Shown in pieces: positions 44-15,411 of a stretch of 57,622 nucleotides of DNA (its first letter is position 1; the number at the start of each line of letters is the position of its first letter). Origin of the DNA: Bacillota bacterium (GTDB lineage: Bacteria; Bacillota; Desulfitobacteriia; Desulfitobacteriales; JAJXUE01); assembly GCA_021811155.1 (NCBI GenBank), contig JAJZPO010000007.1, forward strand, positions 1 to 57,622, given 5' to 3'. The notes under the pieces are model-generated. The model was not told the DNA's origin, did no database searches, and worked only from the letters and a program-made list of their open reading frames with translations. Made by a program: the position numbers and the translations under genes.

Positions 44-3000
44 ATGGTATTTTTCAGAAAGAGAGTTCGGGCTAAATTGGTTTCACTGACTGTCACTGCT
101 GCATTTATGTTTAATCTCTTCGGAGCGCCTTTGTCGGTCTCAGCCGCTGTTAGCACGCCGGGAGTTACGCAAAAACCAAAGCTTGCAGCGGACATAGGAG
201 AAATTCCCAACAAACTCCCGGCTGCCAGACTGGAATTGACCGGCAAGCGAACAGAATACTCGACTACGTATCTCAATCCGGATGGCAGCTTTACGGCAGA
301 AATCTATGCCCAACCCCAGTTCTATCAAGACTCAGCCGACAAGAAGTGGAAGAAGATCGACAACAGTCTTAAGCCCAGCGCTAAGAGAGTCGGGACATAT
401 GAGAACGCCGCCAATGACGTTTCTGCCAAGTTCGCTGACCAAGCCGGAACCGGCGACTTAGTATCTGTAGAAAAAAATGGGACAAGCATCGCTTTGGTTC
501 CTGATACAGCCAACATCGTTAAGGGTGTTCTAAGCGGCAACGAGATTACATATCCAGGTATCTTTGCAAATACTGATGCCCGTTACCATATGCAGGGTGA
601 CGCCGTAAAAGAAGACCTGATCCTTCACCGGTATTCAAATGTTAACACCTTTACCTTTGAACTTAAGCTCAACGGCGTAAAGCCTGTTGTGGAAAAAGAC
701 GGGACAATCGCCTTCAGTGACACTAAAGGTAATAAGCAGTGGTTTCTGGCAAAGCCATATATGACTGACGCCAATGGGAAGTATTCTGACAAGGTTTCCT
801 TAAACTTACGTGAAGTAAACGGTAAGACCTATGTAGATGTTGTGGCCGACCAGTCATTCCTGCAGGACCCTGCCACCCAGTATCCGGTCACTGTTGATCC
901 CACAATCAATAACTGGAACGTCCAGCGTGACAATTTTGTGGCCAGCTCATTTCCGACTTCAATCTTTTCCAGCAACACCTATATGGATACCGGCTATAAC
1001 AGCTATTTCGGTTCCACACGCTCGCTTGTGAAGGTCTATCTGCCCAGCCTGCCTAGCGACAGCAAGATCACGAGCGCCAACTTCAATGCTTATCAAACCC
1101 AAAGTAACGCAACCGGTGTTTCCGTCGACCTGTTCCGGGCTAACTCCAGCTGGGCGTCTTCTGTTACCTGGAATACCCAGCCCACACTTGCCGTAAACCC
1201 CGAATCCACAACAACGAGTAACGCCGTTAATACCTATTGGCAGTGGGATATTACCCAGTTGGCCAAGGACTGGTACAACGGTATTCAGCCAAACTACGGT
1301 TTCATGTTAAAGCAGCAAAACGAAGGCGCCTCGCCCTACTGCAGCTTTAATACCAGTAACGCCAGTACAAATACCCCACGGCTGACGATCAACTATACGG
1401 TAGATCCAATCGGCTTGGAAAATTTCTGGGGTTATACCAAAGACGGCGTCAACCCGGCCAACGGCAACCTGGTTTTTCAGGACACCGATCTTTCTATTTC
1501 CGGTCGTGGTATACCCGTAAGCGTCACCCGGACCTACAACAGCCGAAAGTCAATGACACCGGGTATCTTTGGTTATGGCTGGTTGAGCAACATCGAAACA
1601 CGCCTTGTCGACGCGGGAACCGGGCCAATTACTTTAATCGACGGTGATGGCACGCGACACATCTTCGGTGAAGTTGCCGGGGGAGGCTATGTCGCTGCCG
1701 GAGGCATCTATCTAACCCTGGTCAAAAACGGAGACGGGACTTATACCATCACTCAAACTGACGGAACCAAGGTAAACTACAACACCGGCGGGAAGATTGC
1801 TTCCATTGTGGACACTAATGGAAATACCACAGCCTTTGCCTATGATGCCAATGGCAAGCTGACCACGCTTAGTGACGCCTCGGGACGGACCACTTCTATA
1901 GCCTATGGAACCAACGGGTACGTCACGAGCATCACAGACCCGGTCAACCGGACGGTAGCCTATGAGTACGATGCCAACGGAAACCTGACCAAGGTCACTG
2001 ATGCCGCCGGGAAGTTCACGACCTATGCGTACGATTTAACCCATAACCTGACCGGTATAACCAATCCCCGGAACATTACCACTACCGTTGCCTACGATAC
2101 GTCAGACCGGGTCACTGCGGTAAGCCGCCCCATTACAATAGACGGAACACCCACTGCCAGCACAACCGGCTATGTCTACGATACCACGAACATGGTAACG
2201 GAAGTAACCGATGGGGAAGGCCGCCGGGTGGACTACACCTACAATGCCAACGGCAACATAGTCCAGGTGACGGAAAACCCGCTTGATACACAAAACAAGG
2301 CCATAACCACCTTTGCTTATGACAATAACAACAACTTAACCCAGATCAAAGACCCAAACACCAACAAAGTGAACGGCAGCCAAGCCTATGTTTACACTTA
2401 TGACGCCAACGGGAACATCACAGGAGTGCAGCTCCCCGAAGGTCAGAACTCTGCCAACACTTACGATAGCAACAATAACCTCATTACCGCTCAGGATTTT
2501 AACAGCACTCTTAGCTCCTATCGCTACGATTCAGCTAACAATCAGACTGAAGCCACCGATCCCAACATCCAGACCAGCGCCAATCGCTATGATGCCAATG
2601 GAAATCTCCTCAACTATACTTTCCCCATGTCTGCCGCTGACAATCTAATTCCGAACTCCAGTTTCGAACTGGACAATAACGCTGACAACTGGCCGGATAA
2701 CTGGACACAGTCAACCCAACCGAACATGACAGCGACCTTTGCCTGGTCAAGCACAGCCAAGTTTGGTCAGAAATCGGTCAGTGTTTCTAACCCCACAGGT
2801 TGGGCCATCGTCGGTACAGACATGCTCCCTTATACAGCCGGGGACAAATATGTGGTCAGCGGCTATATAAAGACCGTAGCTGCTACTAACACAGCAGTGC
2901 TCAAACTGGCCTTCTATGACGTGAACGGAAACTGGCTCGGCCAGCAAACCGCCTATCAACTCCAAGGGACGAACGACTGGACAAGAGTCCAGGCCGTAGT

Positions 3001-5359
3001 CGACAATATCCCGGCCAATACAGCCAAGATCCAAGCCACGGTTGGTCTGAATGCAGGCTCTGGAACAGCCTATTTCGACGGAGTGCAGTTAGAAAAGGGC
3101 GCCGTTCTCAGCGCTTATAATCTCGTTGATAACTCCAGCTTTGAGCGGGACAGCAATGCGGATAACATTCCGGATAACTGGACCACCAGCGGCAACCTAT
3201 CCGTCAATGACGGAATGGATCAAAGCACGGTTTATATCGGCAAGTATTCGTTTAAGATGACCGGTGAAACAGGCAAAAACAAATATATTAAGCAGCGCAT
3301 TAATGTTTCCGGTGATGCTGCCTCAAGCTTTACCCTATCGGGATGGTCAAAACAGGTGGGAGCAGACTCCAATGGCGGGTATTACGACCTACAGGTAGCC
3401 ATCAATAACAGCGACGGGACCACCGACTGGACCAATGCCAGCAATTTTGATAAGACAGCCACCGGCTGGCAGCACGTAGCGGCTCAGGTGAAACCGACAA
3501 AGGCATTTGGCTCAATTGACGTCTACTACTATTATTACAATCAAACCGGAACAGCCTGGTTCGACGCCATGCGGCTGGAAGAGGGAGCCTCCCACACCTT
3601 CAACACCTACGACGCCAATGGAAACTATGTCACCAGTGTAAAAGACCCCCTGGGAAATACTGTTTCCTCCGCCTACGATAGCATTGGCAACCAGCCTGGC
3701 AGCACGGACGGTAAAGGGCAGACCACGTCATTTGCGTATGACGCTCGAAACAGGCTTACAACGGTAACAGATGCGACAGCGGGAGTAACATCCTACGGTT
3801 ATGACGCTGCGGGGAACCGGACAAGTGTAACCGATGCCAAGAACAATGTGTCGACCTATGGATATAACGAGTTTAACAAGGTGTCAAGCTACACCAATCC
3901 GCTCAACCAGACTATCCAATTCGGGTATGACAAAGACGGGAACACCACCAAGGTTATGTTCCCGAAAGGGGACACGATCTCCTACACCTATAACGGGCTT
4001 AACCGGATGGACGGGGTATATTACAATGGTGTTAAGCAGTGGGGACTTGGCTACGATGCCAACGGCAACCTGACCTCCGCAACTGACGCCGCCGGAAACG
4101 CCACGACCTACTCCTATGACAACAACAACCGCCTTACCCAACAGGCCGAAACAGCGTCCAACACCATGGGCTATACCTACGATGCCAACAGCAACCTTAC
4201 TTCGTTAACGGTGACAGCGGGAACAGCAACAGTTACTCAAGGGTACAGCTACAACCCGATGAACCTCATGGTGGCCCTTTCCCGGAACGGGGCTAACCAG
4301 GCCAATTTCGTCTATGATGAACGGGGCAATGTAACTTCGGTGACGTATTCAAATGGCACCTATGCCGCCTATGAATATGATGCCGATAACCGCCTGTCAT
4401 CGGTGAAGAATTACAATGCTTCGGGGGCGTTGCTGGACAGCTATGCCTACAGCTATGATGCCAACGGGAACATTACTAGCGTTGCCACAAATAACGGGAC
4501 TATTTCCTACCAGTACGATGCCCTAAACCGGTTGACCCAGGAAAACCTGTTGGATGGAACGGTCATAACTTACCAGTACGATGCAGTTGGCAACCGCACG
4601 CAAAAAGCAGTGACCCAAGGCGGTAATACCACAACCACCACATACACCTATGATGCTTGGAATGAGCTAACTGCAGTCAATGGACAAGCCTACACATATG
4701 ATGCCAACGGTAACCTTACCAGTAACGGAGCTAAGACTTTTATTTACGATGCAGAAAACCACCTGACTCAAGTGAAGGATTCTGGCGGGAACTCACTGGC
4801 AACGTTTACCTACGATTACCAGGGCAAGCGTACCAGCATGACCACTACTGGTGGAACTATTTACTTCCACTACAACGGGGATAAGGTCATCTACGAGACT
4901 GATGCCAATAACAATATCGTGTCAGAGTACAGTTACAATGCCCAAAGCCAACCCGTTACCATGACGAAAAATGGGGCAACCTATTACTATCAGCTCAATG
5001 GGCATGGCGATGTAACAAAGCTCACGGATGCCAGTGGTAATGTTGTAGCGAGCTATCAATATGATGCTTGGGGAAATATTATTTCCCAGTCCGGTAGTAT
5101 GGCTTCCGCTAATCCATACCGCTATGCCGGTTACCGATATGATGAGGCAACAGGACTTTACTACCTGATGGCCAGGTACTATGATGCAGGTGTGGGACGG
5201 TTTATAAGTAGGGATACGTTCCAGGGGGTTGAGGATAGGACTTTAAGTCAGAATCAGTATGTTTATTGTGAGAATAATCCTGTTAACAGTTTGGATCCAT
5301 CGGGTCATTGGACACAACGTTGGTGGAATTCAACTTGGTTTATTGGGTACCGTCAATAG
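44..5359 (+). CDS. Secreted RHS/YD-repeat protein with DNRLRE-like and two carbohydrate-binding-like modules
   Basis: Large RHS-family wall or secreted protein of 1771 residues. The ATG is preceded by AAGGAGGAAG at 31-40. Residues 1-35 form a signal peptide (basic start, hydrophobic core, cleavage near VSA-A). A DNRLRE-like structural domain spans about 285-450, followed by a DUF6531-like RHS start near 470-545. YD repeats (GYDANGNLT type) run about 600-865 and again 1190-1680. Between them lie two related modules of about 155 residues, both opening with N-x(5)-SSFE and carrying D-NW, resembling carbohydrate-binding jelly-roll domains. The RHS-associated core (RYAGYRYDEATGLYYLMARY) is near 1692-1730. 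Only about 35 residues follow the core, so no toxin domain is visible. RHS proteins form a shell that can carry a C-terminal effector; here an adhesion or wall role is as likely. The family call is firm, the function is not known. Confidence 0.93.
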   Translation: MVFFRKRVRAKLVSLTVTAAFMFNLFGAPLSVSAAVSTPGVTQKPKLAADIGEIPNKLPAARLELTGKRTEYSTTYLNPDGSFTAEIYAQPQFYQDSADKKWKKIDNSLKPSAKRVGTYENAANDVSAKFADQAGTGDLVSVEKNGTSIALVPDTANIVKGVLSGNEITYPGIFANTDARYHMQGDAVKEDLILHRYSNVNTFTFELKLNGVKPVVEKDGTIAFSDTKGNKQWFLAKPYMTDANGKYSDKVSLNLREVNGKTYVDVVADQSFLQDPATQYPVTVDPTINNWNVQRDNFVASSFPTSIFSSNTYMDTGYNSYFGSTRSLVKVYLPSLPSDSKITSANFNAYQTQSNATGVSVDLFRANSSWASSVTWNTQPTLAVNPESTTTSNAVNTYWQWDITQLAKDWYNGIQPNYGFMLKQQNEGASPYCSFNTSNASTNTPRLTINYTVDPIGLENFWGYTKDGVNPANGNLVFQDTDLSISGRGIPVSVTRTYNSRKSMTPGIFGYGWLSNIETRLVDAGTGPITLIDGDGTRHIFGEVAGGGYVAAGGIYLTLVKNGDGTYTITQTDGTKVNYNTGGKIASIVDTNGNTTAFAYDANGKLTTLSDASGRTTSIAYGTNGYVTSITDPVNRTVAYEYDANGNLTKVTDAAGKFTTYAYDLTHNLTGITNPRNITTTVAYDTSDRVTAVSRPITIDGTPTASTTGYVYDTTNMVTEVTDGEGRRVDYTYNANGNIVQVTENPLDTQNKAITTFAYDNNNNLTQIKDPNTNKVNGSQAYVYTYDANGNITGVQLPEGQNSANTYDSNNNLITAQDFNSTLSSYRYDSANNQTEATDPNIQTSANRYDANGNLLNYTFPMSAADNLIPNSSFELDNNADNWPDNWTQSTQPNMTATFAWSSTAKFGQKSVSVSNPTGWAIVGTDMLPYTAGDKYVVSGYIKTVAATNTAVLKLAFYDVNGNWLGQQTAYQLQGTNDWTRVQAVVDNIPANTAKIQATVGLNAGSGTAYFDGVQLEKGAVLSAYNLVDNSSFERDSNADNIPDNWTTSGNLSVNDGMDQSTVYIGKYSFKMTGETGKNKYIKQRINVSGDAASSFTLSGWSKQVGADSNGGYYDLQVAINNSDGTTDWTNASNFDKTATGWQHVAAQVKPTKAFGSIDVYYYYYNQTGTAWFDAMRLEEGASHTFNTYDANGNYVTSVKDPLGNTVSSAYDSIGNQPGSTDGKGQTTSFAYDARNRLTTVTDATAGVTSYGYDAAGNRTSVTDAKNNVSTYGYNEFNKVSSYTNPLNQTIQFGYDKDGNTTKVMFPKGDTISYTYNGLNRMDGVYYNGVKQWGLGYDANGNLTSATDAAGNATTYSYDNNNRLTQQAETASNTMGYTYDANSNLTSLTVTAGTATVTQGYSYNPMNLMVALSRNGANQANFVYDERGNVTSVTYSNGTYAAYEYDADNRLSSVKNYNASGALLDSYAYSYDANGNITSVATNNGTISYQYDALNRLTQENLLDGTVITYQYDAVGNRTQKAVTQGGNTTTTTYTYDAWNELTAVNGQAYTYDANGNLTSNGAKTFIYDAENHLTQVKDSGGNSLATFTYDYQGKRTSMTTTGGTIYFHYNGDKVIYETDANNNIVSEYSYNAQSQPVTMTKNGATYYYQLNGHGDVTKLTDASGNVVASYQYDAWGNIISQSGSMASANPYRYAGYRYDEATGLYYLMARYYDAGVGRFISRDTFQGVEDRTLSQNQYVYCENNPVNSLDPSGHWTQRWWNSTWFIGYRQ

Positions 5360-6355: not shown

Positions 6356-7147
6356 CTAATGAGCGTGGGCTCTTTTCCCTGCAAGGTGAAAATGGGAATG
6401 TTCGTGGATCAGGTTTACATCCAGCAGCAGACCGCGGTTGCGCAAAAGCTGCTCAGGCGCACCATCAGCGGCCACCCTGTGGTCTTCGCCAAAGATAACT
6501 ACCCTGTCCGCTATCTCCTCCACAATGTTTAAATCATGGGTGGCCGTGATCAGGGTTTTGCCGGCTTGGCGGAGGCTCAGCAAAAGTTCTACCAGCCAGC
6601 GCTGCGTGCGCGGGTCCAAGCCGTTAGTCGGTTCATCCAGGATCAGGACTTCGGGGTTAACGGCCAGCACACAGGCCAGGGCCACTTTCTTTTTCTCGCC
6701 GCCGCTCAGCCTGTAAGGAGGGCGGGCAGCCAGACTTTCGATATCCAGCAGGGCCAGAGTTTCCTGTACGCGCTGTTTGACCTGTTCCGGCGAATACCCT
6801 AACTGCAAGGGGCCAAAAGCCAGTTCATCCCAGACTGTGGCTGAAAACAACTGGGCGTCCGAGTTTTGAAAGACAAATCCCACCCTCTGGCGAAATCCAC
6901 GGGCGAACTGTTCGTCTTGCAGGTTAGCCTCGCTTAATTCCAGATTAAAAGCGTTAATCATGCCGCCGCTTGGATGAATAAGCCCGCTGACCAGTTTCAT
7001 CACAGTTGATTTGCCGCACCCGTTGGCGCCGAGAATTACCAGAGACTCGGCGGGATAAATGTCAAGACTGAGGTTTTGCAGAAAAGGTTGATCAGAGAGA
7101 TATCCGAAAGATACCTGTCGCAAAGAAAATAAGGGTAAGCGGTTCAT
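6356..7147 (-). CDS. cbiO: ECF transporter ATPase CbiO (cobalt/nickel)
   Basis: ATP-binding subunit of an energy-coupling-factor importer, 263 residues. Visible motifs are Walker A GANGCGKST (about residue 40), signature LSGGEKKK, Walker B VLILDEPTNGLDP and the H-loop TATHD. The C-terminus is histidine-rich (HEHSHFHLAGKRAHAH), which is common in Ni/Co CbiO proteins. The frame is open further upstream, but the ATG at 7147 overlaps the cbiQ stop as ATGA, indicating translational coupling; the longer reading would run deep into cbiQ. It hydrolyses ATP to drive metal entry through CbiQ and CbiM. Confidence 0.93.
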   Translation of the reverse strand: MNRLPLFSLRQVSFGYLSDQPFLQNLSLDIYPAESLVILGANGCGKSTVMKLVSGLIHPSGGMINAFNLELSEANLQDEQFARGFRQRVGFVFQNSDAQLFSATVWDELAFGPLQLGYSPEQVKQRVQETLALLDIESLAARPPYRLSGGEKKKVALACVLAVNPEVLILDEPTNGLDPRTQRWLVELLLSLRQAGKTLITATHDLNIVEEIADRVVIFGEDHRVAADGAPEQLLRNRGLLLDVNLIHEHSHFHLAGKRAHAH

Positions 7148-8094
7148 GGCAAGACACCCCCCATTGCTTTGTCGGCCACAAAAAGAAACATGCTTAGCAG
7201 TAAGGCCAGGACAATGGCGGCCCAATCCCAAAAAGTGAGGCGAAAACGGCTGATGCTGCGCACTTCCCCCGTATAGCCCCGGGCCAGCATTGAGGCGTAA
7301 ACCTCTTCGCTCATGGCCTGGGATTTGCCAAACAGTGTTCCCATGGAAGCGGCAATGAAGCGGCGGTTTTCTTTTAAATCACCCGCGCCGATCATCCGGG
7401 CTTTGCGGGCAAAAAACATTTCTTCCACACTGGATAAAAGCACAAAAATATAGCGGTAAGTCATTTCCATGGTCATGACAAAGACTTTGGGCACGAAGAA
7501 GACGCGCAAGGCTTTAAGCAGGTCCGTCCAGCGGGTGGTCAGGGTGAGCAGGACAGCAAGGGAAACCGAGCTGCCGACGCGCAGAATCATCAGGATATTG
7601 CCCTTAAGACCTTGCCTGGTAATAGCTAAAGTTGACGGGAAATGAAACGGGCCCAGGCTAAGCGAATGGGCGAAGTCCCACAGAGTAACCAGAGCAGTGC
7701 CGGGACGCACCCAGTTAAACAGGGCCGGCAGAAGCATGATTCCCGTAAACAACGGCACGACAAGCCATACCCGCTTCAAAAACCGGGCCAGAGAAACATG
7801 GGACAGTGCTGCCAGTATTATCAATCCAAAATAGGCCAGAACCAGGAGCAGCGGATTATGCACCAGGGAAACGGTCAGCAGGAAACAGGCAAATCCAATC
7901 AGTTTTGCCCTGGGATCAAGGGCCTGCAGCAGACCCGGCTTGTTTGCTGTCTGTTCGGAAAACACAGCATCCCTGATCAGCTTGGATAGGTCAAAAAGAG
8001 TTTTTTCGATGAAGTTTTGCTTGCTGCGTTTGCCGCTGCAGCCGCATGAGCACATGCCGATATTATTTTCTAGCAGCCAGTCCGGTAGTTTCAT
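7144..8094 (-). CDS. cbiQ: ECF transporter transmembrane subunit CbiQ
   Basis: T component of the metal importer, 316 residues, with several membrane helices and the family's coupling segments ending in ASMLARGYTGEVRS (A-R-G motif that docks on the ATPase). The N-terminus carries an unusual CSCGCSGKR cluster near residues 15-23 that might bind metal. The ATG lies 32 bp inside the cbiM reading frame, and the protein start MKLPDWLLENN fits the family. Its stop overlaps the cbiO start. It links CbiM to CbiO in the membrane. Confidence 0.92.
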   Translation of the reverse strand: MKLPDWLLENNIGMCSCGCSGKRSKQNFIEKTLFDLSKLIRDAVFSEQTANKPGLLQALDPRAKLIGFACFLLTVSLVHNPLLLVLAYFGLIILAALSHVSLARFLKRVWLVVPLFTGIMLLPALFNWVRPGTALVTLWDFAHSLSLGPFHFPSTLAITRQGLKGNILMILRVGSSVSLAVLLTLTTRWTDLLKALRVFFVPKVFVMTMEMTYRYIFVLLSSVEEMFFARKARMIGAGDLKENRRFIAASMGTLFGKSQAMSEEVYASMLARGYTGEVRSISRFRLTFWDWAAIVLALLLSMFLFVADKAMGGVLP

Positions 8095-9109
8095 CCGGCT
8101 TTTCCCCTTTGGCCATAAGCTTTTGCACTGCCAAGACGATTATCATGATGAGCACAACTCCAGCGATGGCTGCCGCGATATACCCGACCGCCTGCTGCCA
8201 GAAGGTTTGATCCCAACCCCGGACGCTGTAGTCAGGGAAGAGCAGGGGCTTCCAAAACCCGGTAAATTTATCCATTCCCGCCGGGATAAAACCGAATTTG
8301 GCCTGGATTTCCTCGGCGCCCCATTCACCCCACGCCGTGCCCTGGGCCAACAGTCCAAAGGGCGAAAGCAAAGCCAGGATGCCCAGGGCCGGCAGGATTT
8401 TCTTCCAGCGGGGAGATTCGCCGCCTGCGGCAGGGGCCCTCAGTGTCAACAGGGAGGGGTTAGTTTTCTGCAGGTAGGATACCACCAGTCCGGAAATAAC
8501 AGCTTCCACCGGACCGGCCACCAGCAGGTGGGCCAAGGCCATAGCCGGTACTGCCACACCCAGACCGTAAGGGCTGTAAAGCGGCGTTCCGTCCGCAGCG
8601 TGGAACAATAAAGGCTGCAGGCCAAACTCAACACCGGCTGCCAGGGCGGCCAGGTTAAGCCCTACGTAGCCTGCAATGCCTGCAGCTATCCAGCGACGTT
8701 TCGCTGTGACAGGGCTTTGTCCGGAAATCCATGTATAGATGAAGTAAGCGGCAAAGGGCAGAATAAAGGCCATATTGAAAATGTTCGCTCCCAGGGCCAG
8801 GATACCCCCGTCCCCGAAAAACAGCGCCTGGATAATCAGGGCGATGCTGATAGAGATAAAAGCCGCCCAGGGGCCCAGCACAACTGCCAGCAGCGCTCCG
8901 CCCACCCCGTGGGCTGTAGTGCCGTCCGGAATGGGAACATTGAACATCATGATGAGAAAGGAAAAGGCTGCGCCGATCGCAAGAAGCGGAATGTATCTGG
9001 CTTTTACGGTCTTGGCGGTCTTGTAGGTGGAAACCGCTGTGGTTACAGCGCTGGCCGCGCCCAGGACACCGCAGGTCTGGGGGCTTAAGTACCCGTCCGG
9101 AATGTGCAT
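8063..9109 (-). CDS. cbiM: ECF substrate-binding subunit CbiM/NikM fused to an N-type domain
   Basis: S component of 348 residues. It begins MHIPDGYLSP: in CbiM/NikM the mature N-terminus and His2 bind the Ni or Co ion. Core membrane helices cover about residues 1-215, with MFNVPIPDGTTAHGVGGALLAV characteristic in sequence order (quoted here only as the PIPDG...AHGVGG motif). After a linker the last ~110 residues hold a soluble loop and a final helix (VGYIAAAIAGVVLIMII), resembling a fused CbiN/NikN (PDGLE) domain, so no separate cbiN is needed. CooT upstream argues for nickel rather than cobalt. It starts 21 bp after cooT. Confidence 0.92.
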   Translation of the reverse strand: MHIPDGYLSPQTCGVLGAASAVTTAVSTYKTAKTVKARYIPLLAIGAAFSFLIMMFNVPIPDGTTAHGVGGALLAVVLGPWAAFISISIALIIQALFFGDGGILALGANIFNMAFILPFAAYFIYTWISGQSPVTAKRRWIAAGIAGYVGLNLAALAAGVEFGLQPLLFHAADGTPLYSPYGLGVAVPAMALAHLLVAGPVEAVISGLVVSYLQKTNPSLLTLRAPAAGGESPRWKKILPALGILALLSPFGLLAQGTAWGEWGAEEIQAKFGFIPAGMDKFTGFWKPLLFPDYSVRGWDQTFWQQAVGYIAAAIAGVVLIMIIVLAVQKLMAKGEKPDETTGLAARK

Positions 9110-9130
9110 GTAAGACTTCTCCTCATTTCT

Positions 9131-9328
9131 TTATTTCTCTGTCTCTTCTTCCAAAACAATGCGGTGGTTGAGCAGGTTCATGTCTTTAATCCTGGCCCGG
9201 ATCAGTTTTTGCCTGCCGAAAATATCCACCAGGCGCAGTCCGTCAGCCGCCGGTTCGATGATGTCTACCTGCTCCATCAGCAATTCTTCCCGGTCCCCAT
9301 TTTTCATGTAGGCATTTGCTTCGCACAC
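9131..9328 (-). CDS. cooT: CooT-family nickel-binding protein
   Basis: A 65-residue protein starting MCEANAYM, with later MEQVDIIEP and LVDIFGRQKLIRARIKDMNL, ending HRIVLEEETEK. This matches the small dimeric CooT family, where Cys2 helps bind Ni(II); CooT was described with CO dehydrogenase maturation in Rhodospirillum rubrum. The GTG start at 9328 is chosen because it puts Cys at position 2 and follows AAGGGGGTGA; the open frame extends ten codons further without a matching RBS. It is the first gene of the cooT-cbiMQO unit, which suggests nickel handling for CO dehydrogenase, hydrogenase or a similar enzyme. Confidence 0.85.
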   Translation of the reverse strand: MCEANAYMKNGDREELLMEQVDIIEPAADGLRLVDIFGRQKLIRARIKDMNLLNHRIVLEEETEK

Positions 9329-9341
9329 GGTTCTCACCCCC

Positions 9342-9511: not shown

Positions 9512-10516
9512 TTAATGTTTTGCCCTGCGGATTTGTGCCAACAGTTCCGGCAGCACGTCCCGGAAGTCGGCGGCCACACAATAATCGGAAAACTGGAAAA
9601 TCGGCGCTGTTTTGTCTCTATTCACACTGATGATTACACCTGAGTCCTTGATACCAACCATGTGATGAGCGGCTCCGGAAATGCCCGCGCCCAAATAGAG
9701 CTTTGGGCGTACGGTCTTGCCGCTGCTGCCGATCATGGTATGCTCTCCGCCGGTCCAACCCTGATCCAAAGCCGGCCGGGTACAGCCCACCGCGCCGTTA
9801 AATTCCTTAGCCAGCTCCTCCAGCAAGCGCCAATTCTCCCTGCTGCCAATTCCCCAACCGCCGGCCACAATTACATCAGCCTGTTCAATCGGCATCCCCG
9901 GAGGTTCTTCGACCACCAATCGTGTGGCTCGTAAACGGATCTCAGCATCGTACAGCAGCGATGCTCCGTCTTCCTGTACTATTTCCCCCGTCCGCTCCGC
10001 CAGCCCCACAGGGCTAAACACTCCGGGCTTTATGGTTGCCATTTGCGGCCGCTGCACAGGGCAAAAAATCTCCCCAATGACTTGACCGCCAAAAGCAGGC
10101 ACTAACATAGTCAAAGTTCCATCCGCGGCTAATCGCAGGTTTGTACAGTGAGCTGCCAGGCCGGTGCCGAGTTGGGCCGCCAGGGTTGGCGCCAGCTCTT
10201 CACCGCTGGCGCTGGCTCCGATCAGCACAACATCCGGTCGTTCCCGCTCGATTAGTCTGCGCAGGACGCTGCTGTAGGTGTCATTCTGGTACAGCTCCAG
10301 CCGGGGGTCGTCGACCAGGAATACTTTATCAGCGCCGTGCTTTGGCAGTTGCTGCGCCAAAGGGCCGATAGCAGACCCGAGCGCTACAGCAACCACCTGC
10401 GCATTCGCGGCTTCAGCAGCCAATTGGCAAGCTTTGCCCAAGACTTCCAGACTTACGGCAGCTGTTTTGCCCTGAACTTGCTCAATAATTACCCAGATCA
10501 CCTGCTTCTTTTCCAC
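9512..10516 (-). CDS. etfA: Electron transfer flavoprotein alpha subunit
   Basis: EtfA, 334 residues, carrying the C-terminal FAD-binding stretch with GSSGKTVRPKLYLGAGISGA followed by H-H-M-V-G-I and SVNRDKTAPIF. With EtfB it takes electrons from the acyl-CoA dehydrogenase encoded two genes upstream. A GTG at 10516 and an overlapping TTG at 10519 are both possible starts; GGGGG lies 9 and 6 nt upstream respectively, and GTG is preferred. It is the last gene of the five-gene acyl-CoA operon, 13 bp after etfB. Confidence 0.93.
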   Translation of the reverse strand: MEKKQVIWVIIEQVQGKTAAVSLEVLGKACQLAAEAANAQVVAVALGSAIGPLAQQLPKHGADKVFLVDDPRLELYQNDTYSSVLRRLIERERPDVVLIGASASGEELAPTLAAQLGTGLAAHCTNLRLAADGTLTMLVPAFGGQVIGEIFCPVQRPQMATIKPGVFSPVGLAERTGEIVQEDGASLLYDAEIRLRATRLVVEEPPGMPIEQADVIVAGGWGIGSRENWRLLEELAKEFNGAVGCTRPALDQGWTGGEHTMIGSSGKTVRPKLYLGAGISGAAHHMVGIKDSGVIISVNRDKTAPIFQFSDYCVAADFRDVLPELLAQIRRAKH

Positions 10517-10529
10517 CAACTTCCGCCCC

Positions 10530-11336
10530 CTAGCTTAGCACGCCTGAACTGCGCATGATTGCCACTATCCGCTTAGCTAACTCGGCCGGCTCGCCCTCAA
10601 GCCTCTCACCCTGGCGTTTGAGCTCTGGACGGCTTAATTTGCCCGGTTGCGTCGGCGATCCCGCCAAGCCCACACTGCCAGGGTCCAGACCCAAATTGTT
10701 CAGGCCAAGAACCTTTACCGGCTTATCCTGAGCCGCCAGAATCCCCGGCAGGGAGGTGTAGCGGGGCACATTCATGCCCCGGCTAACGCCAATCACCATG
10801 GGCAGGGCCCCTTCAACCTCGATGTAGCCGTTTTCCATTTTCATCCTTGCTCTAACGTTTGCGTCCGTGTCAATGTTGAGCCAGGTTACATTGGTCAAGT
10901 GGGAGATTCCCAGGATTTCTCCCACCTGGGACGGCACATGGGCTGTGCCGCCATCGGCGCTTTCGCTCCCTGCCAGGACCAAGTCGCAAAGTCCGAGTTT
11001 TTTAATGCCGGCGGCCAGCACCCGCGACGTGGCCAGGGTATCAGCCCCGGCAAAGGCGCGGTCGCTCAGCAGCCAAGCTTCATCAGCCCCCATAGCCAAC
11101 CCTTCCTTTACAGTCTCCAAGGCGTTGGGAGGCGCCATGCTAACCATAACCACCCGCCCCGAGTGCTGCTCCACCAGCTGCAGCGCCGCCTCCAGGGCGT
11201 GTTTATCGGCTGGATTCAGGATATTTGGCAAGCCTTCCCGCACCAGAATACCTGTCTGCGGGTCGATCTGGATGCTCTCATAGCAGCCGGGATCCGGTAC
11301 AGGCTTAACCAAAACGCTTATGTTTAGCCCTTTCAT
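10530..11336 (-). CDS. etfB: Electron transfer flavoprotein beta subunit
   Basis: EtfB, about 268 residues, with VLVKPVPDP at the N-terminus, the nucleotide-binding AGSESADGGTAHVPSQVGE region (LAGSESAD...VPSQ) and SRGMNVPRY in the middle. The frame opens at 11351 with ATG codons at 11351, 11342 and 11336; the last is chosen because GAGAG lies 8-9 nt upstream and MKGLNISVLVKPV fits relatives. It forms a heterodimer with EtfA and binds FAD (and AMP or a second FAD). I see no diagnostic feature that settles whether it is a bifurcating ETF. Confidence 0.92.
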   Translation of the reverse strand: MKGLNISVLVKPVPDPGCYESIQIDPQTGILVREGLPNILNPADKHALEAALQLVEQHSGRVVMVSMAPPNALETVKEGLAMGADEAWLLSDRAFAGADTLATSRVLAAGIKKLGLCDLVLAGSESADGGTAHVPSQVGEILGISHLTNVTWLNIDTDANVRARMKMENGYIEVEGALPMVIGVSRGMNVPRYTSLPGILAAQDKPVKVLGLNNLGLDPGSVGLAGSPTQPGKLSRPELKRQGERLEGEPAELAKRIVAIMRSSGVLS

Positions 11337-11359
11337 CAGCATCACTCTCAATCTGTGGT

Positions 11360-12505
11360 TTAGGCGAGGGTCTGGCCGGCAATGACTAATTGCATGACAT
11401 GGGATGTTCCTCCGGAAGGGATAGTGGCCAAGGCGTCGCGCAAATAACGCCCTACCGGGTAGTCATTTACCACACCGTAACCGCCCATCAGGTCCATGGT
11501 TCGTTTAGCGGCGCGGACTGCGGCTTCGGTGGAAAAGTACTTAGCCGTTGCTATTTCCGCGTCACAGCTGCCTCCCGCATCCTTAAGTCCAATCGCATAA
11601 TAGGTTAGCAGACGTGCTGCTTCATAATCCACCCTGTTCCGGGCGATTTCCAGCTGTATAGCCTGCAGCTTGGCAATTGGCTTGCCGTAAAGGACCCTTT
11701 CCTTGGCGAATCTGACTCCTTCCTCCAGGCAGCCCCGCAGGATGCCGACACTGATGGCGGACATGCCAGTGCGCCCGACTTTGCTGATAGCGGCCAGGGC
11801 CATCTTGGTGCCGTTACCCACTCCACCCAGCACGGCATCCTCCCCTGCTTGACAGTTATTCAGCGACAGATCGCCTGTTCCGGACCCTCGCAGGCCAAAC
11901 TTGTCTTCTTCCCGGCCCGGAGCAAAACCCGGAGTCCCTTTTTCAATGATAAAGGCGGAAAAGGACGGACGCCCTTTGGCGTCTTCGCCGGTGCGCACGG
12001 TGACTACACAGACATCCGCTTCAGAACTATTGGTAATGAAGCATTTCCTGCCGTTCAAAACCCATTTCCCATCCTTCAATTCACCGGTGGATTGCTGACC
12101 CCCCACATCTGAACCGCCCGAGGGCTCGGTTACTGCCAGACCGCCCAGTTTCTTGCCGCTCGCCAGCTCCGGCAGGTACTTGCGTTTTTGCTCCTCGCTG
12201 CCATAGGATAATAGAACCTCGATTCCCAGCTGGTGAGTCATCAGGGTCATGGCAAAACCGGCTGCATGCCTGGCGGTTTCCTCGAGTATTATCGCCCTTT
12301 CCGTCAACCCGAGGCCGGCTCCCCCATATTCTTTGGGCACAATCACCCCGGCAAACCCTAAGGCCCCCATTTTGCGGAATACGTCCATAGGACAGGAGTT
12401 TTCTGCGTCTATCTTGTGGGCAATGGGCTCAATCTCCTTTTCCACAAACTCGCGCACCGCTTTCCTTAACATCTCCTGTGCTGGGCTAAATGTAAACTCC
12501 GGCAT
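11360..12505 (-). CDS. Acyl-CoA dehydrogenase lacking the usual catalytic glutamate
   Basis: FAD-dependent acyl-CoA dehydrogenase of 381 residues, the family's normal length. Visible are [12 protein letters not shown] (FAD/substrate loop), [10 protein letters not shown], the middle beta domain, and [20 protein letters not shown] near the end. In medium-chain enzymes the catalytic Glu lies in I-x-E-G-T; here the aligned segment is IPSGGTSHV, with Gly instead. At the alternative position used by isovaleryl- and long-chain enzymes (Glu before a conserved Arg) this protein has KVGRTG, again Gly. The ATG at 12505 follows AGGAGAG; an upstream ATG at 12532 would overlap the previous gene. It should pass electrons to EtfAB. 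Substrate unknown. Confidence 0.92.
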
Positions 12506-12528
12506 TTTCCATCTCTCCTCTACTAATT

Positions 12529-13989
12529 TCACTTCTTATCCGGCTCCGGGATAGGCTCGCTAATCCCGGCCAGCTTGGCTGCGTAAGCTGCATATTCCTC
12601 GAAGGGGGTACCGGCGCGCACCACCAGCTTGGCTCCGTCCGGGGATCCGCCGCCATGCATGGTGCCGGGGACTCCCGCCCCGAGGGTCAGCCATTCCACC
12701 AGACGCGCTGCCCTGGCCCGGCTCTCCGCCGAAACCTTCTGCCCCGCCTTGACATACTTTTGCACCAGGTTACCGTACAGGGGACTGGTAAAATCCTGAT
12801 AGGACGGCAGACACCCTGTTTCAGCAATGCCCCCGCTGATATCCTGGCACAGCCGCTTGGTCTCGTAGGGCAAAGTAGCTACCAGGACCTTGTTGGTATG
12901 GGCAGCCACCGGGTCAGCCAGCCACACCCCGGACTGGTGCTGTTTACCCTGGGCAATCGCTCCCACTCCGACGCTGTAAGTCGTTTCGTTGTTGATAGCC
13001 ATCTCCACCAACTTGGACATAAATGCCTTGCTTGACAGGCCATTGGCCCTGGCCACATTAATTGCGGCCCCGATCATCACATCTCCTTGCCCGGCAACAC
13101 ACGCACCGATACATGCCCGGTAGTTGGCGGTGAAGTACTGGATTACCTTGCCTGCAAACTTATACTCGCCGCACATGAACACTCTGTCCCTGGGAACAAA
13201 GACATCTTCAAAAAACAGATATGCTTGAGTAATCCCTGTTTCAGGGATGTCGAAACCCTCTTCCAGTTCTCGGCCATCGCTGGCCCTTCTGGCCTCAACT
13301 ACGGTTAAACCGGCCGCATCACGGGGAACCACGAAGGCTACAGCGAAGTCCTTATCCTCTTCGCCGTAGCCGGCGCCGGGAATGACAAAGATTTCCTCGG
13401 ATGCCGCGACCCCGGCGATCATAACTTTGGCTCCGCGTACGATTATCCCGTCTTCCCGGATCTCAGTCACATGCACATTGCTGTCCAAGTCCGCTTGCTG
13501 GTGAGGCTTTAAGCTGCGGTCGCCTTTGGCGTCTGTGAGTCCTCCGGCTACCACCAGACCTTTGGCCTGAGCGCTAAGGAGCCATGCTTTCAGATGCTCG
13601 TGATAGCCGGTCCCGTATGCTTCATCCATTTCCCGGGTCACAGCCCAAAGGACATTGAAGGTATTCCAACCCACACAAGTGCCTCCCGAACAGGTACCCG
13701 TAGCCCGATAGCTTGCCCGTTTCAATTTCATGTTGTAGACGGTTTCTTCAATCGACGTCATCAGAGAATTGAAGCGAAAAATCTTGTCGCCGCCAAAAGA
13801 AGAAGTGGTGGTGAAAATATCGGCCAGCTTGGGGTCAGCGGCCATGTCGAAAGCCCGGGCATGGCTTTCCACCACGCGCTGTGTGGCAGGGTGTGATGTC
13901 ACATCCTCAATCAGTTCGCCAAATTTGTAGATGTTTGGCCGCATAGCCTTAAGACTTGCCAGGTACTGTTCTCTGGTACGTAACGCCAT
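12529..13989 (-). CDS. 4-hydroxyphenylacetate 3-hydroxylase / 4-hydroxybutyryl-CoA dehydratase family protein, divergent
   Basis: A 486-residue flavoprotein of the HpaB/AbfD family; MHGGGSP near residue 444 and VRGAKVMIAG near 184 are family marks. In AbfD of Clostridium aminobutyricum a [4Fe-4S] cluster is held by C99, C103, H292 and C299. Here the first pair is spaced C100-x4-C105, the His position is Tyr290, the last Cys is kept (C297), and an extra C293 appears. AbfD residues Glu257, Tyr296 and Lys300 correspond to Gln255, Ile294 and Val298. This is from remembered AbfD sequence, not an alignment program. It is probably not a normal 4-hydroxybutyryl-CoA dehydratase; a related dehydration, isomerisation or flavin role on a CoA ester is possible. 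It lies between the ligase and the dehydrogenase. Confidence 0.88.
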   Translation of the reverse strand: MALRTREQYLASLKAMRPNIYKFGELIEDVTSHPATQRVVESHARAFDMAADPKLADIFTTTSSFGGDKIFRFNSLMTSIEETVYNMKLKRASYRATGTCSGGTCVGWNTFNVLWAVTREMDEAYGTGYHEHLKAWLLSAQAKGLVVAGGLTDAKGDRSLKPHQQADLDSNVHVTEIREDGIIVRGAKVMIAGVAASEEIFVIPGAGYGEEDKDFAVAFVVPRDAAGLTVVEARRASDGRELEEGFDIPETGITQAYLFFEDVFVPRDRVFMCGEYKFAGKVIQYFTANYRACIGACVAGQGDVMIGAAINVARANGLSSKAFMSKLVEMAINNETTYSVGVGAIAQGKQHQSGVWLADPVAAHTNKVLVATLPYETKRLCQDISGGIAETGCLPSYQDFTSPLYGNLVQKYVKAGQKVSAESRARAARLVEWLTLGAGVPGTMHGGGSPDGAKLVVRAGTPFEEYAAYAAKLAGISEPIPEPDKK

Positions 13990-14012
13990 GTTTCTCCTCC
14001 TTGTATGTGCTG

Positions 14013-15353
14013 TTATTGCTTGCGCAAATCGACTACCCGCTTAGCTTTATGAGTCGCCCGCTCCAGGGAATTGGGAGGCAGGACCGCAACTTGCGGCTTG
14101 AAGCCAAGAATGCGGTAAATATCTACGGTTACCCGTTCCGCCAATTGTTCTGCGCTGCTGTTAAAACCCTCGACACGTTCAACTTCCACCGTAAGCTGTG
14201 CCAGGTGTTTGTGTTCCGACACCACCAGGCGGTATTCACCTGTAAGATGATGGTTTTGCCGCACCACCTTTTCGATGTCACTGGGGAAAACGTTGATACC
14301 GCTGATGATCAACATGTCATCTACCCTGCCATGCACGCCATGCAATCTTAAATGAGTACGCCCACAGCCGCAGCGTTCCGTGGTGTAGGAGACAATATCT
14401 CCGGTTCTAAAGCGGATCAGCGGTCTGGCTCGTTTTTTCAGGGAAGTAATCACCAGCTCGCCGCGCTCTCCCTCAGATACTTCTTCACCGCTGTCCGGAT
14501 CCAAAACCTCAACCAGAATATGGTCCTCGGCCCAGTGCAGACCTTCTTTGGCCTCACACATTCCGGCACAGGCGCCAAAAATGTCGGATAAACCGTAGTA
14601 ATCATAGAGTTCGGCTCCCCACAAGGCCTCAATCCTCTGCCTGGTTTCCGGAATCGAACCGCCTGGTTCCCCGGCTACGAAAATCTTCCTGATTGCCAAA
14701 TCGGTCATTGGGTCGATACCCTGGGCTTGGGCAGTTTCTCCTAAGTACCAGGCATAAGACGGAGTGGTCCACATGGCCGTGACCCTCCATTTCTGCAGAA
14801 TGTCCAACAACCGTTCAGACGGAATCGCTCCACCCCAGAGGCACATAGCTCCGACCTTCATGGCCCCAATCACATCGGGTCCTCCCACGAACATGGTGAA
14901 CTGCAGGGAATGGCAGTACACATCACTGGGTCTTAAGCCGGAGGACCAGAATAGTCTGGCTTCATAGTCCTGCCACTCTTCAAAGTCCTGCCAGGTGAAA
15001 GGGGACGCAGTAGGAACTCCTGTGGAACCGCTTGAGGCCGAAAGGTAAACCATGTCATCGCTGGGCACACAAGTCAAATCGCCGTAGGGGGGAGACGTTT
15101 CCTGCCGCTTGCGCAGGGTGCTTTTGTTGATAAAAGGTAAATTTTTCAGGTCTTCAAGCCGCTTGAAGCTATCAGGTGAAATTCCCGCAGCAGCAAAAGT
15201 TGCCCTGTAATACGGAGAGTTATAGGCCAGCGCTATGGTTTCCTTGAGCAGTTTTAACTGTAAGGCTTTGAGTTTTTCCCTGGGCATGGTCTCCAGTTCC
15301 TCGTTCCAATAAGGCGCATAACCCGCAGGCCGCCACAACCGATGCTTGGACAT
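14013..15353 (-). CDS. PaaK-like AMP-forming carboxylate-CoA ligase
   Basis: Phenylacetate-CoA ligase-like adenylating enzyme, 446 residues. Motifs include the P-loop YLSASSGSTGVPT (about residue 115), YDYYGLSDIFG (A5), IRFRTGDI (A8 start), the zinc-like CGCGRTHLRLHG and GRVDDMLIISGINVFPSDIE, ending with a PaaK C-terminal domain and the lysine-bearing THKAKRVVDLR. It should activate an aromatic or similar acid with ATP and CoA. The ATG at 15353 is preceded by GGGGGAGA; the ORF opens earlier without an RBS. It is the first gene of the operon and lies about 33 nt after the predicted sigma-54 start. The true substrate cannot be read from sequence. Confidence 0.92.
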   Translation of the reverse strand: MSKHRLWRPAGYAPYWNEELETMPREKLKALQLKLLKETIALAYNSPYYRATFAAAGISPDSFKRLEDLKNLPFINKSTLRKRQETSPPYGDLTCVPSDDMVYLSASSGSTGVPTASPFTWQDFEEWQDYEARLFWSSGLRPSDVYCHSLQFTMFVGGPDVIGAMKVGAMCLWGGAIPSERLLDILQKWRVTAMWTTPSYAWYLGETAQAQGIDPMTDLAIRKIFVAGEPGGSIPETRQRIEALWGAELYDYYGLSDIFGACAGMCEAKEGLHWAEDHILVEVLDPDSGEEVSEGERGELVITSLKKRARPLIRFRTGDIVSYTTERCGCGRTHLRLHGVHGRVDDMLIISGINVFPSDIEKVVRQNHHLTGEYRLVVSEHKHLAQLTVEVERVEGFNSSAEQLAERVTVDIYRILGFKPQVAVLPPNSLERATHKAKRVVDLRKQ

Positions 15354-15396
15354 TGACTTTCTCCCCCCTGTTAATCTTCGTTCCAATAAGTCCGTT

Positions 15397-15411
15397 GCAA
15401 TAATGGTGCCA
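15397..15411 (-). promoter_or_regulatory. Sigma-54 (-24/-12) promoter of the acyl-CoA operon
   Basis: On the minus strand the sequence reads TGGCACCATTATTGC, with exactly ten bases between the GG (-24) and GC (-12), matching the sigma-54 consensus TGGCAC-N5-TTGC. The predicted transcript starts near 15386-15387, 33 nt before the PaaK-like ATG and its RBS. Confidence 0.82.

Follow-up and report, generated by a model that had tools for sequence, protein, structure and literature searches.

A conserved five-gene acyl-CoA operon behind a sigma-54 promoter in a Desulfitobacteriales genome, with two flavoenzymes of altered catalytic residues

The genome of a Bacillota bacterium of the order Desulfitobacteriales (assembly GCA_021811155.1; 3.22 Mb in 149 contigs) carries, on contig JAJZPO010000007.1, an operon that raises a simple question: which acid, and which chemistry, do its five genes serve? 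The stretch analysed here, termed the window, comprises positions 1 to 57,622 of the forward strand of that contig. The operon encodes an acyl-CoA ligase (LIG), a flavoprotein with the 4-hydroxybutyryl-CoA dehydratase fold (ABF), a protein with the acyl-CoA dehydrogenase fold (ACD), and the two subunits of an electron transfer flavoprotein (EtfB and EtfA; together EtfBA, or ETF). A first-pass annotation, made from the sequence alone, had described these genes as one compact unit under a sigma-54 promoter; the observation was confirmed, and the overall interpretation given with it was supported in part.

The operon, its relatives and its promoter

All five genes lie on the minus strand (Table 1), separated in the order LIG, ABF, ACD, EtfB and EtfA by 23, 23, 23 and 10 nt, and searches of Pfam, NCBIfam and the PDB bore out the families of the five proteins. 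Relatives were sought with ABF in public genomes, in 83 genomes of the class and in 398 genomes of the phylum. The complete set, in the same order, is present in G042 and G043, two further genomes of the order Desulfitobacteriales (loci L051 and L052; about 61–83% identity), and in a deltaproteobacterial metagenome-assembled genome (MAG; locus L014; 64–84% identity). This is the five-gene neighbourhood that the first-pass annotation had proposed to look for in other genomes; none of the copies found has been assigned to a pathway, and, in agreement with that annotation, no description of the gene set was found in the open-access full-text literature. The five genes are a real, conserved operon. 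The L014 copy of ABF (L014:9796-11046) lacks residues 45–111 in frame, possibly through an assembly error.

Shorter forms of the set also occur, namely ABF-ACD-EtfB-EtfA without an adjacent ligase (L071, L074 and L009, an archaeal MAG), ABF-ACD-EtfBA with the ligase further along (L069), and LIG-ABF alone (L067). ACD is followed by EtfB-EtfA at every ACD locus except L115, which has no adjacent ETF. Among the 398 phylum genomes, ABF was found in 11 and ACD in 9, with both in 6 (Fisher p = 7e-9), and the ligase was found in 6, together with ABF in 3 (p 3e-4); these p-values assume independent genomes, which related genomes are not. ABF was also identified in MAGs labelled Zixiibacteriota, Synergistaceae, Negativicutes, Deltaproteobacteria and Euryarchaeota.

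The promoter is an exact match to the sigma-54 consensus (TGGCACCATTATTGCA) located 42 nt upstream of the ligase ATG, a match for which shuffled sequence gives an expectation of 0.09 per window. A loose scan identified sites of the form TGGCAY-N5-TTGCW, or sites differing from it by one mismatch, at eight homologous loci as well, upstream of ligase genes (L051, L052, L067 and L069), of CoA-transferase genes (L010, L077, L085 and L086) and of ABF genes (L069, L085 and L086). Genes for sigma-54 activators are found nearby in L051, L052, L067, L069, L077 and L010. In L051, an intact NtrC-type regulator gene is followed by an MFS transporter gene and then by the operon, so that the regulator stands two genes away; L052 has the same arrangement, with its regulator cut by the end of the stretch. 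The relic upstream of the window operon is 83% identical to the C-terminal end of the regulator in L051 and lies in an open frame of only 28 aa, the remainder of the gene being gone. No ortholog of this regulator was found elsewhere in the window genome, where the best other match has 43% identity, and about 20 strong matches to sigma-54 activators are present. The window operon thus appears to have retained its promoter beside a regulator reduced to a relic, and another sigma-54 activator of the genome may serve it.

Table 1. Features of the operon and its upstream region in the window
Feature	Position	Strand	Basis
LIG, AMP-forming acyl-CoA ligase, PaaK / 2-hydroxyisobutyryl-CoA synthetase-like, 446 aa	14013..15353	-	NCBIfam and PDB matches
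ABF, flavoprotein with 4-hydroxybutyryl-CoA dehydratase fold	12529..13989	-	PDB matches, tree, residue alignment
ACD, acyl-CoA dehydrogenase fold, 381 aa	11360..12505	-	Pfam, PDB, residue comparison
EtfB, electron transfer flavoprotein beta subunit	10530..11336	-	Pfam and NCBIfam searches
EtfA, electron transfer flavoprotein alpha subunit, TTG or GTG start, last operon gene	9512..10519	-	Pfam, NCBIfam
Sigma-54 (-24/-12) promoter, TGGCAC-N5-TTGCA	15396..15411	-	Exact consensus
NtrC-type sigma-54 activator relic, last 23 codons	15516..15584	-	Similarity to L051 regulator

Two flavoenzymes with altered catalytic residues

ABF matches 4-hydroxybutyryl-CoA dehydratase (AbfD; PDB 1u8v) over its whole length (residues 3–460, E 8e-92) and vinylacetyl-CoA isomerase (6vjr) at 2e-88. 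It shares with the 4-hydroxyphenylacetate 3-monooxygenase HpaB (2yyg) the superfamily defined by the Pfam domains HpaB_N and HpaB, but that match is much weaker (2e-24; NCBIfam TIGR02309, 117 bits against a cut-off of 480), and the paired cysteines are missing from the Thermus HpaB in the alignment. In a tree of 53 sequences, for which the program warned that some long branches meet, 27 ABF orthologs form a single clade with support of 100/100 and a stem branch of 0.88. The window genome is of the same order as Desulfosporosinus; the ABF-like protein of its relative G015 (family f2) shows zero branch length to the D. lacus protein in this tree.

The 27 sequences of this clade were compared with 25 other AbfD-like sequences, residues being given in AbfD numbering. 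Fold, length and the three cysteines of the [4Fe-4S] cluster are common to ABF, 1u8v and 6vjr: Cys99, Cys103 and Cys299 are kept in all 27 sequences (Cys100, Cys105 and Cys297 in the window protein), and an additional residue between the first and second gives CX4C where AbfD has CX3C. His292, the fourth cluster ligand of AbfD, is conserved in 25 of the 25 other sequences, whereas 25 of the 27 ABF-clade sequences carry Tyr at this position (the window protein as Tyr290), one carries Glu and one His. Tyr296, Lys300, Glu455 and Thr190 serve in the active site of AbfD. Each of these is altered in the ABF clade: position 296 is Ile or Met (Ile in 26 of 27), position 300 is Val or Met (Val in 25 of 27), Thr190 is replaced by Ala or Cys, and Glu455 is absent throughout, the alignment being gapped there. 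The description of the protein as a divergent AbfD-like flavoprotein therefore extends to its relatives, and the first proposal, that AbfD chemistry as known changes a hydroxyl group or a double bond, is not supported in that form, since the residues on which this chemistry depends, His292 among them, are replaced or absent across the clade. These residues suggest that the cluster is present in ABF with a different fourth ligand or nearby base, as would fit an enzyme with a different reaction.

The second unusual enzyme, ACD, possesses the N, M and C domains of the acyl-CoA dehydrogenase (ACAD) family in Pfam. The catalytic Glu of ACADs lies between helices J and K or, as in IVD, on helix G (PMC5798300). 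Comparison with the PDB sequence of Bcd placed Gly at both positions in the window protein. Among 15 ACD sequences with 60–100% identity to it, 14 have GGT at the YEGT position and one has SGT, and in all 15 the helix-G Arg is preceded by Gly or Ser; the absence of the usual base noted in the first reading is a property of the whole group. YEGT is retained by the ACADs of L068, L079 and L123. The abstraction of the alpha-proton by the usual base has probably been lost in ACD, which would be in keeping with reduction, or with a reaction for which this base is dispensable; of the two options first offered, a side route feeding another pathway and a reductase route, the missing base would, by inference, favour reduction. 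The top NCBIfam model of ACD is the acryloyl-CoA reductase AcrC (352 bits against a cut-off of 640), and CarC (6fah) is among its relatives. The window operon shares with AcrABC and CarCDE the unit of an ACAD and EtfBA, but differs from them in the additional ABF gene, in the missing glutamate of ACD and in its score against AcrC.

Ligase, other suppliers of the acyl-CoA, and surrounding genes

The ligase had been called PaaK-like, which holds for PaaK-type relatives and fails for PaaK proper: more than 430 residues align with 4r1l (6e-85) and with the 2-hydroxyisobutyryl-CoA synthetase 6hdw (3e-77), while the scores for the PaaK models are 289 of 646 bits (TIGR02155) and 313 of 700 bits (NF041878). 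It belongs to the same family as PaaK and 6hdw, falls under all curated cut-offs, and appears by its sequence to be almost as near to 2-hydroxyisobutyryl-CoA synthetase as to PaaK-type ligases. PaaK proper, AcrC proper and HpaB proper were rejected as identities on the NCBIfam curated cut-offs.

The gene that could supply the acyl-CoA differs between the ABF loci. L077 encodes a CoA-transferase resembling butyryl-CoA:acetate CoA-transferase (400 of 675 bits), with similar genes in L010, L085 and L086; L071 encodes a VorB-type oxidoreductase (542 bits, cut-off 399) and an OCD-family protein; and Por-type oxidoreductases adjoin ABF in L015, L016 (PorA-like) and L072. AOR-family genes are found near ABF in L069, where the copy is nearest to 1aor, and in L077, L085 and L086. 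Ligase homologs adjoin Por-type subunits in L123 and L124; L123 additionally contains genes for an aminotransferase, an ACAD and MetNQ-type ABC proteins, as well as the beginning of the gene for isobutyryl-CoA mutase (IcmF). In L010 and L077, ABF lies near genes for crotonase, ETF, thiolase and/or 3-hydroxyacyl-CoA dehydrogenase. Taken together, the supplier genes point to acids that would derive from 2-oxoacids, and VorB, the CoA-transferase and IcmF suggest a C4–C5 size; on the other side, ABF stands beside ordinary beta-oxidation genes in L068 and L079. LarA-like genes (L072 and L120) and RACo (L076) were dropped as pathway clues, each occurring only once or twice.

ABF-free ACD loci have other surroundings. 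In L117 and L118, ACD-EtfBA is clustered with a TRAP transporter and with genes resembling those for DoeA (ectoine hydrolase), EutA and agmatinase, a cluster that could possibly represent an anaerobic ectoine-type route. In L120, it adjoins an MmdA-type decarboxylase alpha subunit and Na+-translocating beta subunits, together with genes that, judged by the starts of their sequences, look like IlvD and LarA. A membrane protein is kept near ABF or the ligase in L067, L069, L077, L085 and L086; in Pfam it matches MFS_MOT1 weakly at best (in the L077 copy), and it is possibly the transporter of the acid.

In the window itself, neither a thiolase nor a hydratase gene adjoins the operon, as the first-pass annotation had stated. 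Downstream, positions 6356–9337 encode CooT (Pfam E 3e-24) and a Cbi-type Co/Ni ECF transporter whose CbiM is barely over its cut-off (402.6 against 401 bits); CooT suggests that the metal transported may be nickel. The presence of Cbi-type transporters downstream of the operon in the window and in L051 and L052 had first suggested a link with cobalt or B12. This link was dropped and the transporter treated as unrelated, because the window CbiM has no BLAST match at 1e-15 among the locus proteins, because the cobalamin riboswitch that precedes cbiMNQO-like genes beside the homologous operon is found only in L051 (L051:13740-13922) and L052 (L052:3765-3948), and because the window copy is accompanied by CooT. 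Both CooT and the transporter were judged to stand outside the pathway and not to be pathway enzymes. Positions 44–5359 encode a 1771-aa protein with YD repeats (RHS-like) by the look of its translation.

What the operon may do

Our preferred reading, held tentatively and at somewhat less than even confidence, is that the operon, under sigma-54 control, would serve the anaerobic breakdown of a short-chain carboxylic acid, and that ABF would catalyse a new reaction in it. The acid would most likely be a C4–C5 compound, perhaps branched, such as isobutyrate, isovalerate or 2-methylbutyrate, or else an acid that oxidative decarboxylation yields from an amino acid, 3-methylthiopropionate being one example. 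The ligase would form the CoA ester, a step for which a CoA-transferase or a 2-oxoacid:ferredoxin oxidoreductase would substitute elsewhere. ABF, with FAD and a [4Fe-4S] cluster predicted on three cysteines and Tyr at the fourth position, would then generate a flavin- or ketyl-type radical on the acyl-CoA and yield an enoyl-CoA by a redox-neutral elimination or isomerisation that dispenses with the groups used by 4-hydroxybutyryl-CoA dehydratase. Finally, two electrons would pass between ACD and this product by way of EtfBA; because the base for alpha-proton abstraction is missing, ACD would more likely act as a reductase. The order of activation, AbfD-like step, dehydrogenase and electron exchange through ETF, as originally laid out, remains plausible. 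For the dehydratase, a flavin semiquinone and an allylic ketyl have been proposed (PMC13101534), and the (R)-2-hydroxyacyl-CoA dehydratases, whose substrate binds to cluster iron (PMC8473912), provide a precedent for substrate-binding iron in acyl-CoA radical chemistry.

Several observations weigh against this proposal. Three genomes (G126, G329 and G436) have ACD-EtfBA but no ABF, so the substrate of ACD need not be the product of ABF, and ACADs with a normal glutamate lie near ABF in L068 and L079. The PaaK-type ligases are close relatives, which would also be compatible with arylacetates, and the Vor and Por subunits belong to broad families, with Por-type members beside ABF at three of the loci described above (L015, L016 and L072).

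Caffeate respiration combines a ligase, an ACAD and EtfBA, a gene logic shared by the window operon. In an anaerobic respiration of this kind, the electron acceptor would be an unsaturated acid or a hydroxy acid: the ligase would activate it, ABF would dehydrate or isomerise it to a 2-enoyl-CoA, ACD and ETF, possibly bifurcating, would reduce this product, and the saturated acid would leave the cell. The kinship of ACD with CarC and with the acryloyl-CoA reductase model, as well as its missing base, is compatible with such a reduction; the oxidative neighbours at many ABF loci (2-oxoacid:ferredoxin oxidoreductase, FixC-like, crotonase and thiolase genes) argue instead for degradation, and we regard this route as rather unlikely.

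An arylacetate route, in which ABF and ACD would act on an aryl-acyl-CoA (phenylacetyl-CoA or a relative) made by the ligase, draws on the PaaK-like character of the ligase and on the AOR-family and Por-type genes beside ABF or ligase relatives, which could supply arylacetate or arylacetyl-CoA. It is quite improbable, given the low ligase score against PaaK, the butyrate-type CoA-transferase relatives, a VorB named after a branched aliphatic 2-oxoacid, the lack of recognised ring-reduction genes among the loci read, and the lack in arylacetyl-CoA of a hydrogen-bearing beta carbon on which ACD could act.

The standard 4-hydroxybutyrate route, with a canonical dehydratase or vinylacetyl-CoA isomerase supplying crotonyl-CoA to a butyryl-CoA dehydrogenase, would account for the common fold, the three cysteines and the butyrate-type neighbours in L010 and L077. 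Both the residues and the separate, long-branched ABF clade disfavour it. Moreover, G042 and G043 each hold a separate AbfD-like gene besides their ABF-clade gene, and the window genome holds a more distant AbfD-like paralog, so that this explanation is very unlikely.

The bbu cluster for the use of gamma-butyrobetaine also offers an anaerobic acyl-CoA elimination by a flavoenzyme, BbuA, for which a radical mechanism like that of 4-hydroxybutyryl-CoA dehydratase has been proposed, at about 10% identity to that enzyme (PMC8364193). It has CoA-transferases in place of a ligase, ferredoxin in place of ETF, and a betaine transporter; a BbuA-like betaine elimination was rejected on this low identity and the different cluster.

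A B12-free carbon-skeleton isomerase joining branched isobutyryl-CoA to linear C4 acyl-CoA would draw on the radical chemistry native to the fold, on the L123 ligase homolog grouped with Por subunits, aminotransferase, ACAD and IcmF, and on the linear C4 oxidation genes of L010 and L077, but such a rearrangement is without precedent in this fold and is most improbable.

The boldest reading would make ABF a new activity in the 4-hydroxybutyryl-CoA dehydratase fold, a FAD/[4Fe-4S] enzyme in which the cluster, on three cysteines and with Tyr nearby, would have iron accessible to the substrate and would carry out a radical reaction that is not known for the family (for instance, the rearrangement just named), coupled to a base-less ACD acting only as a reductase; we consider this reading doubtful.

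ABF and ACD are flavoenzymes of two subfamilies whose catalytic residues have changed and which travel together in anaerobic genomes. Similarity alone would name ABF a 4-hydroxyphenylacetate hydroxylase or a 4-hydroxybutyryl-CoA dehydratase, and its residues contradict both names. The two proteins offer a test of how a dehydratase-type cluster functions without its histidine and of whether an acyl-CoA dehydrogenase can function without its glutamate base, and working out the reaction would put a name to a so far unassigned anaerobic route for the breakdown of acids or amino acids.

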